From positions 1-34,759 of the forward strand of contig CALWCH010000017.1 of NCBI GenBank assembly GCA_944376335.1: a stretch of DNA of 34,759 nucleotides. The letters are read 5' to 3'. The stretch's first letter is position 1. Every line of letters starts with the position of its first letter. A program made the position numbers and the translations under genes. The DNA comes from an uncultured Clostridia bacterium. Lineage in GTDB: Bacteria; Bacillota; Clostridia; Christensenellales; Borkfalkiaceae. The notes under the pieces were generated by a model, which searched no databases, was not told the DNA's origin, and worked only from the letters and a program-made list of their open reading frames with translations. This document shows positions 22,812-29,002 of the stretch, piece after piece.

Positions 22812-24140
22812 TCAGTCTGCGCTGCCGAATAAATCGTAGCTCTCCGCGCGGTCTACAAGGACGGAGTAAATTTCCCCTTCCTTTGCCTCCCTCGCGGTGA
22901 AGTAGACGACGCCGTCGATGTCGGGCGCCTGAAAGTAGGCCCTTCCCACAAAGCAGGAGCGCTCCATGTCGATGCCGTCGCAGAGGACGTTGAGCCTCTT
23001 GCCCACGAACTGTTCCATATTGGCGCGGGCAATGGGCTGCTGGGCGGCGTAGAGCTCGCGCACCCTTCTTTGCTTGGTGCTGTGATGCACCTGCCCCTTC
23101 AATTTATAGGCGGGCGTGTTGGGCTCGCGCGAGTAGGCAAAGCACCCGAGATTCATGAACTTCGCCTCTCGGATAAATCCGATGAGCCCCTTGTGTTCCT
23201 CCTCCATCTCAGTGGGAAAGCCCGAAATAAAGGTGGTGCGGAGGGCGATCTCGGGAATTTCCTCCCTCAGCCTTTGAAAGAGCGCCAGATACTCCGCTCG
23301 CGTGCCGCGCCGCCCCATGAGCTTTAGGACGCGGTCCTCCGAGTGCTGGAGAGGGATATCGAGATACTTCAAAATTTTCTTTTCGTCGCGGATGAAGGCG
23401 ATGAGTTCCTCGGTGATCTTCTCGGGATAGCAGTAGAGAAGGCGGATGTGATGAATATTTTCGAGCGCCGCAAGCGCCCTTAAGAGCGGAATGAGCCGGT
23501 TTTCGCCCTTGTCCTCGCCGTAGCGGGTGATGTCCTGTGCGACGACGATGAGCTCCTGCGTCTCACCCAAACTTCTCGCCTCTTCGACGATCGCCTCCAA
23601 GGGATAGGAGAGATACCGCCCGCGGATGGACGGAATGAGGCAGTAGGTGCAATGGTTGGAGCAGCCCTCGGAAATTTTCAGGTACTTGTAGTGGTCGGGC
23701 GTCGAGAGGACGCGCGGAAAGAGCGTTCCCTCTTCGACGGGGCACTCATTCCCCTTGCCGACGGCATTGACGCGCTCCCCCGCATACGCCCTTTCAAGCG
23801 CGGGAAAGAGCGCTTTGCAGTCGGTGGTGCCCAAAAACACGTCCGCCTCGGTGAGGGCGGGGTAGAGCTCCTCCTCATACCCCTGCGGAAGGCACCCCGT
23901 GACGACGAGCTTTTCAAGCTTTCCCTCGCGCTTCAATTTGCTCGCCTCGAGGACGCTCAAAATGGCTTCCTCGCGCGCCGCCGTCAAAAAGGCGCAGGTG
24001 TTTACGATGACGACTTGCGCCCGATAGAGGTCGGTCGTCACCTTCGAGCCGTTCTTTTCGATCTCTCCGAGCAGACGCTCGCCGTCCACTCTGTTTTTAT
24101 CGCACCCCAACGAGATGAGGGCAAATGTCTTTTGCAGCAT
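22812..24140 (-). CDS. rimO: Ribosomal protein S12 methylthiotransferase RimO
   Basis: Radical SAM enzyme that methylthiolates Asp in ribosomal protein S12. The 442-residue protein has the three expected parts. The N-terminal UPF0004 domain carries Cys13, Cys49 and Cys83 (SLGCDKNRVDGE, VNTCAF, TGCLPQ). The radical SAM core has Cys160/164/167 in EGCSNHCTYCLIPSIRGRY, and the C-terminal TRAM domain is near VGRAYFQAPDIDGVVYF. The SLGC(x)KN and IPSIRG forms favour RimO over MiaB. The start ATG at 24140 lacks a clear Shine-Dalgarno sequence; the leader is AT-rich and contains a CCCGC/GCGGG hairpin (24188-24201). It lies between the FtsK-gamma-like gene and pgsA. Confidence 0.95.
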   Translation of the reverse strand: MLQKTFALISLGCDKNRVDGERLLGEIEKNGSKVTTDLYRAQVVIVNTCAFLTAAREEAILSVLEASKLKREGKLEKLVVTGCLPQGYEEELYPALTEADVFLGTTDCKALFPALERAYAGERVNAVGKGNECPVEEGTLFPRVLSTPDHYKYLKISEGCSNHCTYCLIPSIRGRYLSYPLEAIVEEARSLGETQELIVVAQDITRYGEDKGENRLIPLLRALAALENIHHIRLLYCYPEKITEELIAFIRDEKKILKYLDIPLQHSEDRVLKLMGRRGTRAEYLALFQRLREEIPEIALRTTFISGFPTEMEEEHKGLIGFIREAKFMNLGCFAYSREPNTPAYKLKGQVHHSTKQRRVRELYAAQQPIARANMEQFVGKRLNVLCDGIDMERSCFVGRAYFQAPDIDGVVYFTAREAKEGEIYSVLVDRAESYDLFGSAD

Positions 24141-24209
24141 AGATTTAAAAAATGAGTTGAAGTTGCCGAAAATGCGCTCGGCGCTTCCCGCACTTGCGGG
24201 AGAGCAAGT

Positions 24210-24665
24210 TTACCCCATGCGGGAGAGGAGCTCCAGCGCCTTGAGATACTCGGGATCTGCCCCCTCTTCTTCCGCTACTTCATGCAGCGGAAGCGGACCC
24301 GCCAAGCACTCCTCCGCCTCGGCGCAAGCGCGCTCTGCCCCGTATGCATCGAGGCTTCCGAACTTTTGCTCAAATTCTTCCTTTGTGAGCAGCACCTCGC
24401 GCGGCTTTCCCATGCCCGAAGAGGGAGCGATGTAACCCATGCTCTCCATCCACTCAAAGATCTTGCCCGCGTGGTTATACCCCAAACTGAACTTGCGCTG
24501 GATGTCCGAAATCGTCAAAGTGCCCTTCCTGACGGCAACGGCGAGCGCCTTGATATATTCGGGCCCGGGCGCAATGCCCTCTTCGAGGAAGATGCACTCC
24601 GCTTCGCCGTCTCCCGGCGTTCCGTCGCACATCATATACGGAAATAAAAAACTTTTTTGCATCAT
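24210..24665 (-). CDS. Free-standing FtsK-gamma-like winged-helix protein
   Basis: This protein of about 151 residues starts 13 bp after ftsK. Residues about 33-67 (GPEYIKALAVAVRKGTLTI, DIQRKFSLGYNHAGKIFEWM) closely match the last domain of the FtsK encoded just upstream (GPEYIKALAIVVKLGSASI, LIQRKCGVGYNHAGKIIEWM). The following KPREVLLTKEEFEQKFGSLD also matches the FtsK C-terminus (ARTTLLTKEEFESKYGNLD). The gamma domain of FtsK binds polar DNA motifs (KOPS) and XerD, so this protein may bind DNA without a motor. The last 17 residues, GADPEYLKALELLSRMG, look like the beginning of a further gamma domain that stops abruptly. Start choice among TTG 24668, ATG 24665 and ATG 24662 is uncertain; CGGAG is 4-5 nt before 24665. 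Confidence 0.85.
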   Translation of the reverse strand: MMQKSFLFPYMMCDGTPGDGEAECIFLEEGIAPGPEYIKALAVAVRKGTLTISDIQRKFSLGYNHAGKIFEWMESMGYIAPSSGMGKPREVLLTKEEFEQKFGSLDAYGAERACAEAEECLAGPLPLHEVAEEEGADPEYLKALELLSRMG

Positions 24666-24677
24666 CAATACTCCGTT

Positions 24678-27600
24678 TTAGTCGAGATTGCCGTACTTGC
24701 TCTCAAATTCTTCCTTGGTGAGCAGCGTCGTGCGCGCCTTCGCCTTGCCGTCGAAGGGAGAGATGTAGCCCATGAGCTCCATCCATTCGATGATCTTGCC
24801 CGCGTGGTTATACCCCACGCCGCACTTGCGCTGGATGAGCGAGATGGACGCCGAGCCCAATTTCACGACGATGGCGAGCGCCTTGATGTACTCGGGGCCC
24901 ACCGAACCGCCGTCACCGTCGTCATCATCGTCGCTGCCGCCGTCATCGGGCGAGGTGCGGTTGATGTAGTCGGAGACTTCCTGATCGAAGTACGCCTCGT
25001 TGTTCTCCTTGATGTTCTGCACAACGGCGGCGGCCTCCGAATTGCCGACGAACGCGCCCTGCACGCGCAGGCAGTTGAACATGCCGCCCGTCTTATACAG
25101 CATATCGCCGTTGCCGAGCAGCTTCTCCGCGCCCGATTCATCCAAAATGGTACGCGAGTCCACTTCCTGAATGACACGGAACGCCATACGCGTGGGCAGA
25201 TTGCCCTTGATGACGCCCGTGATGACGTCGACGGACGGCCGCTGCGTCGCGATGACGAGGTGGATGCCCGCCGCGCGCGCCTTCTGCGTCAGCCGCTGGA
25301 TGCGTTCCTCGATGTCCTTCTTGGCGACGGACATGAGGTCGGCGAGCTCATCGACGACGACAACGATCTTGGGAAGTTTCTCCTCGTCGGGCGTCAGATT
25401 GGCGTTATAGTCGTTGATGTTCCGCACCACCGTGCCCGAACGCGTCTTCTGCTCAAAGACGTCGTACCTTCGCTCCATCTCCTTGATCGCCCAGTTGAGC
25501 GCCATGATGGCCTTCTGCGCATCCGTAATGATCTCGTTGATCATGAGGTGCGGCAGCCCCTCGTAGAGGACGAACTCATTCTTCTTGGGGTCGACGAGAA
25601 TGAGGCGGAGATCCTCGGGCGAATACTTTGCGATCAGGCTGATGAGCATGGAGTTGAGGCAGACGCTCTTACCGGAGTTGGTCGTGCCTGCAACGAGGAT
25701 GTGCGTCATCTTGACGATATCGCCGCACACGGCGCGGCCCTCGACGTCCTTGCCGATGACGAACATCAGCTTGGTGGGATCGTCGTTGCGGTAGTCGGGC
25801 GATGCCATGAGGGAGCGGATGCCCACCATTGCGCGGTGTGCGTTGGGCACCTCGATGGAGATGGCGCCCACCTCCGAGTTGGAATACATATTCACGCCGT
25901 CGCGCGCATGCAGGCGCATGGCGATCTCCTCGTCGTGACGGATGACCGAGCGCACCGAGATGTTGCGGGGGATATCGATGTCGTACCGCGTGACGGCGGG
26001 GCCCGAGGTCACTTTGACGATGTTGGCGTCCACGCGGAAGCCCTCCAGCGTCTCCACGATGACGGAGGAATTGTATTCGATCTCCTTGGGCGAGACGGTC
26101 ACGGAGTCGTCGTACTCCTTAAAGAGATCGAGCGACGGGCGGCGGTACCGCTTATAGGTATGTTTTTTCGGCTTGGGTGCGGGCGGCGCGGGAAGATCCA
26201 TGGGATCGGGCACGCTCTCCCCTCCCCCACCGCGTTCCGCTTTCGCCCTCACGGGGGCAGGCGCGGCTGCAGGCACTTCGGGAAGTTCGGAAATGTCGTC
26301 GTCATCGAAGAGGTCGGCGGCTGACGTGCGCCCGTTCCTGAGCCCTCTCACGGCGCGGCTGTCCTCAAAGCTGCCCGTCTCCGCGGGCGGTTCGGGCTCG
26401 AAAGTTGTGCGGCGGTCGGAGACTTCTTGATCGCCGAACCCCGCCCTTCTCGTCTCTGCGGGCGGCTCGGGCTCAAAGCTCGTCCTTCTGTCCGAAACGG
26501 GCGGTTCGGGCTCAAAGCTCGTCCTTCCTGTCTCCGCGGGCGAGCCGAAGCCCGCCTTCGTATCGGTCTCGTCAAAGCGGCGGGCGTTCCGCTCGCGGGA
26601 GACATCCCCCACATAGTCGACGCCGTCGTTCTTGAGCTGCACGCGGTCGGGCCCTCTCTGTGAGGAAAAGAGGCTGCGGAAGCCGCGCTCGCTCGCACGG
26701 GGGTCGTAGTCGTCCTCGCTCTGCGGCTGCGGCTCGGGCACGGGTGCCTCCTCGGTGCGCCCGAAACTGCGCCCCGTCTCGCGGGAGGCACTGTCCGCCT
26801 CCAAACCGCGCGTGCGGCTGTTCGTATCATCAAAACGGTCGGAGCGGCTGCCCGCATCTTCGAGCCCGCGGGAGCGCTCGTTATTCACATCAAGGCCGCG
26901 GGAACGCTCGCCGCGCGCACGCTCTCTCGTATCAAAGCTGCGGGAGCGGTCGGCGGCATCCTCTGCGCGGGGGGTATCGAAGGGGTTGGGCTCCTCCGGG
27001 AAGTCCGTGCGGACGGGCTCGGGCGCGGGATCGCGGCGGGCACGGCGCAGCTCGCTCTCTGCGGGTGCGGGCGGCTCGGCGATATCGTCGATGCTGGGCG
27101 CGGAGGAAAACTCCGTGTCGTCCACGTCGTTGGCGTAGGCGTCGCGCGCCGTTTGCTCGGGCGTCGTCTCGGGCGACTTAAAGACGGGCACGCGGGGATA
27201 GTTGAGGTCCTCCGCGCGGAAGGAATACGTCTGCTCGTCGCGGCGCGGTTCGGGGCGCTCATGCACCACCTTGCGCGGCATCTGCCCTCTCGGCTCCTTC
27301 TCCTCCTGCTCCGAATAGGCATTGCGGTAGCTCGAGGGCGCGGGCGTCGTACCCGCGTTCACACCGCCCGATGTGCTCTGCGGCGTTCCCTGCCCGTTCC
27401 TGCCGAAATCGGGGCGCAGAAAATCGTCCTTTTTCTCCGAGGCGCGGCCTTCGCTGCGGCTCGTCTCGCCGCGGCGGTCGGAGCGGGGAATGTCGGTGTG
27501 GTCGGTGTATCTCGGCACCTCGCGCGTCTCCCCGAGCGTCTTTCTCTCGGAAAGGCGCTCCCCCCTCTCGACGGGGCGCTCGTACGTCTTGCCAATGGTA

Positions 27601-28925
27601 TAGTCGGGCTTGCGCACGGGCGAGGTGTCGGGCTCGACGCTGCTCCGCCTCACGCGCAAATTGAAGTAGGAATCTTGGTTATAGATGAGGTTCTTGGTGT
27701 AGTCCTGCGCGGGCGTATTCGAAAAGAGGATATCCCTGCCCGAATAGGAGCGCGGCGTCTCGGGCGCGGACGGGCGGTCCGTGCCGTAGTAGCCGACGTG
27801 CCCATTGCGGCCATACCCCTGCGACTCGCGGTCCTGCGGCGCATAGTACCCCTGCACGGGGCGGCTCGGCTGCTGACCGTAGTAGCCCACATACCCGTTC
27901 TGCCCGTAGCCGTTCTGCGGCTGATACTGCTGCCCGTACCCGTACTGCGGCTGCTGCCGATGATCACTCTCGGGATAGGACGGGTACTGCGGATACGTCT
28001 GCTGCGGCTGCCGGTACTGCTGAGGATACCCCTGCATATTCTGCGGGGCATAGCCGTTCTGCGTATAACCATTTTGCGGCTGGTACTGCGGGGGATAGTA
28101 GCCCTGCATATTCTGCTGCTCGGGAGCCTGCGGGACATAATAGCCCTGCATATTCTGCGGCTCGGGGGCGTAGTAGTTGTTGATGTCGTAAGGGTCGCCG
28201 TAGGTGTCGGCATACGCTGCCTCGCCATAGGGCTCGCCGTAGCCGTACCCCGCATACTCTGCCGCAGGCTCGGCACTCGGCACCTCTTGGGGGCTCTGCC
28301 GCTTTTGGCTCCTCTGCGAGGGTTCCCCCTTCTGCCGCTTCGCCTTGGGCGGCTTGAGGGAGCGCGTCCTCTCCGTTCCGACGAGGGAGGCCTTCAAAGG
28401 CGTCGCCCAGAGAAGGACAAAGAGCGCCAGCGCCGCCAAAAGCCCGAACAGCACATACGCCCCCACGGGGGAGATGAGCGCCTGCACGGGATAGACGACG
28501 AGGCCGAACGCCGCCCCGCCCGCCGTTGCCGCGCCCTCCGCGGCGGCAGTATAACAGCCCGAGAGATACGCCCCGTACCCCTCACCCGTCAGGCGGGTGC
28601 TCGTTGCGAGGTGCGCGATGAGGAAGGCGGCAAACAGCACCGCCGTAAGTTTCAGCATGAACTTGGCGGGAATGAGGTTTTTGCCTGCGACCATGCACAC
28701 GGAGCCGTAAAAGCACAGCACGAGCAGCGGGTACACGAAATAGCCGAACGTACCCAAAAGAAACGCCGTGATGTTCACGCCGATCTCGCCGAAGATAAAG
28801 CGCCCTACCGTTGCGATGACGAGTAAAACAACGCTGAAAATGAGAAACGTCATCCCGAACGTCTCCCTCGTCACCACGCCCTTGCCGCGCTCCTGATTGT
28901 CTGCTCCGCGCCCGTAGCCGTTCAA
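24678..28925 (-). CDS. ftsK: DNA translocase FtsK/SpoIIIE with a very long repetitive linker
   Basis: Membrane-anchored ATPase that pumps chromosomal DNA at the division septum. The N-terminus has about four transmembrane helices in the first 170 residues, followed by a low-complexity linker of roughly 750 residues with repeats such as PQNMQGYY, NGYGQNGYVGYYG, ERSRGLE and FEPEPPAETRR. The motor is at the C-terminus: VAGTTNSGKSVCLNSML (Walker A, near residue 1080), DPKKNEF, VVDELADLM (Walker B), GIHLVIATQRPSVDVITG. A gamma winged helix (GPEYIKALAIVV...YISPFDG) ends the protein. I use TTG 28925 because AAAAGGAG lies 6 nt upstream; an ATG at 28997 lies only 5 nt after the -10 hexamer and could be used only as a leaderless start. 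About 1415 residues is well above the family norm of 750-1300. Confidence 0.92.
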   Translation of the reverse strand: MNGYGRGADNQERGKGVVTRETFGMTFLIFSVVLLVIATVGRFIFGEIGVNITAFLLGTFGYFVYPLLVLCFYGSVCMVAGKNLIPAKFMLKLTAVLFAAFLIAHLATSTRLTGEGYGAYLSGCYTAAAEGAATAGGAAFGLVVYPVQALISPVGAYVLFGLLAALALFVLLWATPLKASLVGTERTRSLKPPKAKRQKGEPSQRSQKRQSPQEVPSAEPAAEYAGYGYGEPYGEAAYADTYGDPYDINNYYAPEPQNMQGYYVPQAPEQQNMQGYYPPQYQPQNGYTQNGYAPQNMQGYPQQYRQPQQTYPQYPSYPESDHRQQPQYGYGQQYQPQNGYGQNGYVGYYGQQPSRPVQGYYAPQDRESQGYGRNGHVGYYGTDRPSAPETPRSYSGRDILFSNTPAQDYTKNLIYNQDSYFNLRVRRSSVEPDTSPVRKPDYTIGKTYERPVERGERLSERKTLGETREVPRYTDHTDIPRSDRRGETSRSEGRASEKKDDFLRPDFGRNGQGTPQSTSGGVNAGTTPAPSSYRNAYSEQEEKEPRGQMPRKVVHERPEPRRDEQTYSFRAEDLNYPRVPVFKSPETTPEQTARDAYANDVDDTEFSSAPSIDDIAEPPAPAESELRRARRDPAPEPVRTDFPEEPNPFDTPRAEDAADRSRSFDTRERARGERSRGLDVNNERSRGLEDAGSRSDRFDDTNSRTRGLEADSASRETGRSFGRTEEAPVPEPQPQSEDDYDPRASERGFRSLFSSQRGPDRVQLKNDGVDYVGDVSRERNARRFDETDTKAGFGSPAETGRTSFEPEPPVSDRRTSFEPEPPAETRRAGFGDQEVSDRRTTFEPEPPAETGSFEDSRAVRGLRNGRTSAADLFDDDDISELPEVPAAAPAPVRAKAERGGGGESVPDPMDLPAPPAPKPKKHTYKRYRRPSLDLFKEYDDSVTVSPKEIEYNSSVIVETLEGFRVDANIVKVTSGPAVTRYDIDIPRNISVRSVIRHDEEIAMRLHARDGVNMYSNSEVGAISIEVPNAHRAMVGIRSLMASPDYRNDDPTKLMFVIGKDVEGRAVCGDIVKMTHILVAGTTNSGKSVCLNSMLISLIAKYSPEDLRLILVDPKKNEFVLYEGLPHLMINEIITDAQKAIMALNWAIKEMERRYDVFEQKTRSGTVVRNINDYNANLTPDEEKLPKIVVVVDELADLMSVAKKDIEERIQRLTQKARAAGIHLVIATQRPSVDVITGVIKGNLPTRMAFRVIQEVDSRTILDESGAEKLLGNGDMLYKTGGMFNCLRVQGAFVGNSEAAAVVQNIKENNEAYFDQEVSDYINRTSPDDGGSDDDDDGDGGSVGPEYIKALAIVVKLGSASISLIQRKCGVGYNHAGKIIEWMELMGYISPFDGKAKARTTLLTKEEFESKYGNLD

Positions 28926-29002
28926 ATGTATCTCCTTTTCCGAAGGGAGGGAAGTTTTTCTCTCCTTCTCCACCCTGTGGTATCGCCATTTTCTCATGCT
29001 TC

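Follow-up and report, generated by a model that had tools for sequence, protein, structure and literature searches.

Directly behind a complete ftsK, in a stretch of 34,759 nucleotides from an uncultured Clostridia bacterium of the family Borkfalkiaceae (contig CALWCH010000017.1; hereafter the window), lies a small gene whose product resembles the last part of its neighbour's. Within FtsK it is the gamma domain that reads the direction of the chromosome and turns on dimer resolution, and the locus poses a twofold question: where does a gamma encoded apart from its motor come from, and does it act on its own? The relevant features of the window, all on the minus strand, are as follows:

22812..24140, minus strand: rimO (TIGR01125, 428.9 bits, cut-off 356.95)
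24141..24209, minus strand: 69-bp spacer before rimO, with two predicted hairpins (folding z -1.93)
24210..24665, minus strand: orphan FtsK gamma gene, 151 aa (open reading frame; PF09397)
24213..24254, minus strand: C-terminal tail resembling a gamma start, PEYLKALELLSRMG (7/14 aa; 18/20 nt)
24348..24566, minus strand: gamma winged-helix domain of the orphan, residues 34-106, recognition segment QR....GYN..A retained (identity to own FtsK; AF2; Foldseek)
24671..24674, minus strand: Shine-Dalgarno-like GGAG, 5 nt before the ATG (by eye)
24678..28997, minus strand: ftsK, 1439 aa, motor and gamma complete (PF01580, PF17854, PF09397)
24681..24899, minus strand: FtsK's own gamma, its last 73 residues, the presumed parent (HMM, alignment, DNA identity)

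A profile HMM search, as advised by the initial annotation of this locus, returned a strong FtsK_gamma match (PF09397) in the orphan, whose residues 37-93 align to positions 7-62 of the 63-position model (56.3 bits, E 2.7e-15; curated cut-off 30.6 bits), as compared to 53.3 bits for the gamma of the adjacent FtsK. Neither the RecA-type motor (PF01580) nor the alpha domain (PF17854) was detected in the orphan (HMM scan, E up to 1), which by these two domains places it outside the FtsK/SpoIIIE translocases. The description of a small motorless gamma protein behind ftsK is thus borne out, and so is the claimed repeat of the last residues of FtsK, as 49 of 73 positions are identical in a gapless alignment that runs collinearly to the C-terminus (LLTKEEFE-K-G-LD). 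The annotated spacing of 13 bp needs correction to 12 bp between the ftsK stop and the orphan start codon (ATG at 24665; a TTG is also present at 24668), and it is in this gap that the GGAG is located. Beyond the gamma domain the orphan carries a head of 33 residues, in which the HMM scan found no motor similarity, and a tail of 45 residues. The second gamma start that had been proposed for this tail is short and yet exceeds chance: its match to the start of either gamma (18 of 20 nt) was equalled by 2 and 3 of 2000 in-frame codon shuffles, and by 5 and 4 of 1000 out-of-frame triplet shuffles. Gamma is not continued in any of the three frames between the orphan stop and rimO, the next gene in the ftsK-rimO-pgsA-cinA-recA cluster (as judged by the gene order in relatives). 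A scan for promoters and terminators found none, with no terminator-like site in the spacer at 24141..24209, in which we also saw no clear ribosome site ahead of rimO by eye.

The fold modelling that had likewise been suggested assigns to the orphan the known gamma winged-helix fold: the AF2 model contains one confident domain (residues ~35-108, block pLDDT 78-91) between low-confidence ends, the tail being given a single low-confidence helix. The top eight Foldseek matches are the FtsK gammas of E. coli and P. aeruginosa (target TM 0.74-0.88), of which just the first has an E-value under 0.001; the matches include 2j5p, 2ve8 and the KOPS-bound 2ve9 (target TM 0.87-0.88 for the latter), and MarR-type folds follow as weaker matches ranked after the FtsK gammas. 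In a sequence search of the PDB, all six matches at E up to 0.1 were FtsK, including the XerD-FtsK gamma fusion 5dcf.

Regarding the origin of the gene, 169 of 220 aligned DNA columns are identical between the orphan and the 3' end of ftsK, and in a comparison of 35 genus FtsK gammas aligned gaplessly out of 38 loci (one congener and two loci of another genus being dropped) the own FtsK comes closest to the orphan in DNA identity (0.758), ahead of that of the nearest sister species (0.744). As the orphan's DNA matches its own FtsK best and rimO follows ftsK directly in 50 of the 54 congener junctions seen, the duplication of the ftsK 3' end put forward by the initial annotation is supported, and we regard the orphan, on sequence comparison, as being such a duplicate, copied either as gamma alone or as part of a larger motor-and-gamma unit of which it is the remnant. 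In the trees, all five topologies fell within the 95% set for both DNA and protein (IQ-TREE warned of too few replicates for the AU test, and the paralogue of congener G080, described below, was absent from the trees), and the orphan branch measures 0.50 as compared to 0.02 for its own FtsK. A frameshift or assembly artefact joining the orphan to ftsK, named in the same annotation as an alternative, is ruled out: FtsK is complete through its own gamma, the copy differs from it at 53 of 219 bases, and in most congeners rimO stands directly after ftsK. A horizontal or phage origin is without support as well, since the best DNA match is the own FtsK and no relative turned up in either of two pattern scans over viral contigs; the 127 phage and 39 plasmid records matched in the database all remain below 60% identity, and the orphan is located between ftsK and rimO, not in a phage or prophage. 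Vibrio phages make up 103 of these 127 phage records, and a Vibrio phage RdgC (MW824417.1; L111:1568-2728, plus strand) was observed to carry a C-terminal FtsK gamma (83.5 bits).

The same slot was then compared across the genus. A RimO-like GCDKN motif lies within 62 nt of the ftsK stop at 61 of 73 genus loci (from 50 congeners) and farther away in G064 (201 nt), G006 (916 nt) and G080 (1539 nt); the window's genome also lacks a close GCDKN, and the seven loci devoid of the motif are other gamma genes or sequences ending short. The 151-aa form itself was found in 1 of 103 congeners' genomes (99 with a match), a count which, beyond the junctions read, rests on the match table and includes some ftsK ends at contig edges. 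Its absence from all the other congeners indicates that the orphan is dispensable in the genus, and the DNA identity together with the congener junctions marks it as a copy of the ftsK end restricted to one lineage, at a site that has repeatedly received partial copies of ftsK. Two congeners exemplify the latter:

L145:1590-3077, minus strand: FtsK paralogue of G080 with motor and gamma, 495 aa (PF01580 79.5 bits, PF09397 64.0 bits), between ftsK and rimO
L067:3008-3871, minus strand: FtsK motor fragment of G006, 287 aa, partial PF01580 (52.6 bits), without gamma, between ftsK and rimO

The G006 fragment has a changed Walker A region (85 of 275 residues identical to the motor of the window's FtsK), and looks like a duplicate in decay. 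If these two copies represent other stages of one process (motor plus gamma in G080, a degenerate motor alone in G006), the orphan may be what is left of a larger motor-and-gamma duplicate, a proposal that concerns origin only and is compatible with any function. We consider it possible, if on balance unlikely, since the orphan shares more residues with its own FtsK (49/73) than with the gamma of the G080 paralogue (36/70), and the HMM scan found no motor similarity in its first 33 residues. Other gamma-bearing proteins were also encountered in the genus: a second, weakly gamma-like protein of 132 aa in the orphan's own genome (L073:4430-4828, minus strand; 27.1 bits, below the cut-off), with a match of equal score and frame length in congener G055, and a cpYpsA SLOG protein fused to an FtsK gamma in two congeners (L090:1754-2515 and L147:2439-3224, both on the plus strand), where, in L147, a VirD4-like frame and a gamma protein of 371 aa stand ahead of the fusion (by eye).

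A gene confined to one species, with a long branch, a short gamma-like tail and a degenerate motor-only copy in the corresponding slot of G006, might be nothing but a relic, i.e. a partial duplicate of the ftsK end that drifts without function and is to be lost. We therefore compared the orphan with neutral expectation. Against a gamma model built from 34 genus FtsK gammas and 6 others (minus the window genome's own), the orphan scores 111.8 bits and its own FtsK 146.5 bits. This orphan score was reached by 0 of 600 neutral open-frame simulations at each of 53, 46 and 39 changes (7 or 14 changes being assigned as silent to the FtsK side in the latter two), with maxima of 85.1, 95.2 and 106.4 bits, respectively, and the position-specific test thus rejects neutrality in all three settings; the small gamma gene of G129 (a genome from another genus of the family, see below) gave 0, 0 and 1 of 600. 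A test by identity alone is weak and not decisive: with all 53 changes placed on the orphan, the observed 49 identities were reached by 0 of 1000 simulations (0 of 782 open ones), and at kappa 2 by 14 of 881 open simulations at 46 changes and by 261 of 1077 at 39 changes, the last of which would be compatible with a relic. Pairwise NG86 dN/dS amounts to 0.222/0.615 for the orphan and 0.064/0.439 for that of G129 (values that mix both branches). Five of 25 genus-invariant columns are altered in the orphan (A50L, S51T, L54D, F82S and A86G), and conservation in the recognition segment does not clearly exceed that of the remaining domain (11/14 vs 38/59). The orphan is a constrained yet fast-diverging gamma domain. 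A functionless relic seems rather unlikely to us, as in addition to the position-specific test it is opposed by the ribosome-site-like GGAG before the orphan ATG, by a frame of 151 open codons and by the separate refilling of the slot in other lineages.

This refilling is apparent in the order beyond the genus. Second gammas (or gamma fusions) behind ftsK were recovered from the following genomes:

G129, another genus of the family: 82-aa gamma gene, with four-base overlaps at both the ftsK stop and the rimO start
G323, another family of the order: 196-aa gamma gene between ftsK and rimO, with GGAGG upstream
G511, another family of the order: 202-aa double-gamma gene between ftsK and rimO (149.5 bits)
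G291, another family: PgsA-gamma fusion between ftsK and rimO (28.8 bits, just under the cut-off)

No second gamma was present in either of the two G129 congeners examined, or in the three other genomes of G323's family. Among seven FtsK gammas compared, the own FtsK scores best for each of the G129, G323 and G511 orphans, which fits separate copies; with the same seven, the window's orphan scores 257 with its own FtsK vs 262 with the sister's. Within the family sample of 151 genomes, a second gamma appeared just in G000 and G129 among the matches listed, and at least 8 of the 131 genomes of the order sample, including four from genus g45, have one no more than ~2.5 kb behind the gamma of ftsK (again among the matches listed), both figures being lower bounds from which the weakest matches are absent. 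As judged by position, a second gamma lies ~2 kb behind ftsK in 9 of the 61 g45 genomes sampled, and G511 shows its double-gamma gene. Of 123 genomes sampled across the class at a completeness of 85 or more, 117 belong to other orders, and in none of these was a second gamma seen near ftsK. Conservation among relatives, on which the initial annotation had invited a judgement, is accordingly split: the strict form is limited to 1 of 103 congeners, and the arrangement recurs separately elsewhere in the order. That the slot has been refilled separately in several relatives suggests that gamma may do a job on its own.

The survey also yielded PgsA-type proteins (PF01066), from two families of the order, that bear an FtsK gamma at the C-terminus (61.9 bits to below the cut-off). 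In g45 the fusion stands behind rimO, and among the fusions of the eight genomes scanned the gamma score falls from 61.9 bits through 49.3 bits to no match at all; in G356 a gamma protein follows pgsA (30.1 bits, just under the cut-off). The PgsA-gamma loci are:

L114:2683-3753, plus strand
L115:1525-2433, minus strand
L093:1455-2309, minus strand
L094:2770-3633, plus strand
L095:1187-2038, minus strand
L120, L121 and L123

Moreover, a WYL-domain regulator was found near a small gamma gene in three g45 genomes (L116:28-1288, L117:1104-2853 and L118:209-2110). One could envisage that the ftsK cluster of this order repeatedly sheds a gamma that works in trans, be it a free protein with one or two gammas behind ftsK or a gamma tethered to the membrane through PgsA, forming a motor-independent layer that reads polarity and that would, for instance, hold polar-motif DNA at the membrane or gate FtsK loading and Xer; we deem such a general scheme improbable in this form. 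The abundance of non-FtsK gamma proteins in the order (cpYpsA-gamma, zinc-ribbon-gamma, double-gamma, and gamma genes beside WYL regulators) could be read as a sign that the orphan is an ordinary transcription factor, detached from segregation and binding its own operon or other promoters, and the residues changed near the presumed wing and the MarR-like folds among the weaker Foldseek matches would agree with this. Against it stand the position behind ftsK and the retention of an FtsK-like recognition segment, and we find it doubtful.

What we tentatively favor, at just short of an even chance, is that the duplicated ftsK end now encodes a free gamma which acts in trans on the polar motif and/or on Xer. 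Keller 2016 (PMC5052618) describes three gammas bound to each KOPS and XerD contacted through the same gamma surface, reports that fusing gamma to XerC or XerD activates recombination, and that nine residues (1289-1297, RQFRIGYNR) placed on XerC raise recombination, albeit far less than the whole gamma. The counterpart of this segment reads RKFSLGYNH in the orphan and RKCGVGYNH in its own FtsK, with the QR-GN residues kept. Given these roles of gamma and the residues kept, a free gamma could compete for motif sites or engage Xer; and because the orphan largely preserves the recognition segment found in its own FtsK (QR....GYNHAGKI), it would be expected to bind the same polarised chromosome motif as FtsK and/or the Xer recombinase, with F82S and A86G in or near the presumed wing suggesting a binding similar, though perhaps not identical, to that of FtsK. 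Occupancy of the motif sites or of Xer would then set how easily FtsK loads or Xer is switched on, and should one transcript make both proteins, the orphan would act in step with FtsK. Its most likely role would hence be to tune FtsK loading or dimer resolution, through the same motif or Xer contact in trans.

The partners of such a gamma were searched for in the genome. It holds five tyrosine-recombinase matches, of which four were scanned and a single one is close to the Xer families; the longest Xer-like match is nearest to XerS (201.6 bits vs a cut-off of 267), with XerC and XerD scoring lower and below their own cut-offs, which suggests a probable single-Xer system, although another Xer may be missing since the assembly is 86% complete. 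According to PMC5357621, XerS recombination also requires FtsK translocation, and XerS is described there as devoid of critical XerD contact residues, so that the XerD contact may not carry over. The XerS-like recombinase (L106:1060-2115, plus strand) adjoins hflX and has an inverted pair of 13-mers upstream (by eye). A dif search with a Bacillus-type pattern returned no match, and a KOPS-like octamer search of the window together with 400 kb of the genome, run on 36 of 44 ten-kb pieces (eight being dropped for weak skew), brought up no convincing polar candidate.

Natural free gammas that arose beside FtsK on several occasions within one order would offer a test of whether reading and pumping are separable and would inform how FtsK loading is dosed, and the PgsA-gamma fusions hint at a possible membrane-bound reader. 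The XafT-type Xer activation factors of phages are small proteins that turn on Xer without FtsK, and the orphan would work alike if the activator reading is right, a likeness in described function. With the gammas of FtsK/SpoIIIE (PF09397; PDB 2j5p, 2j5o, 2ve8, 2ve9) the orphan has in common the family, the fold and the QR-GYN segment; it differs from them in being free of a motor, altered near the presumed wing and extended at both ends. With the XerC/XerD-gamma fusions of PMC5052618 it would share, as they are described, a gamma working without the FtsK motor, whereas those were engineered in E. coli and the orphan is natural, its genome having an XerS-like protein as the longest Xer-like match. 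Among the open-access papers listed in literature searches, none described a gamma gene placed behind ftsK or a PgsA-gamma fusion. Separate FtsK_gamma ORFs of unknown role are, by the account in PMC8190038, occasional in phages, in which a terminase-gamma fusion is also described. Free gamma ORFs are thus known from phages, and one placed on the chromosome right behind ftsK appears to be new: as compared to the phage ORFs described there, with which it shares a gamma in a separate ORF of unknown role, the orphan is chromosomal, lies within the ftsK-rimO-pgsA-recA cluster and is most like the adjacent ftsK.
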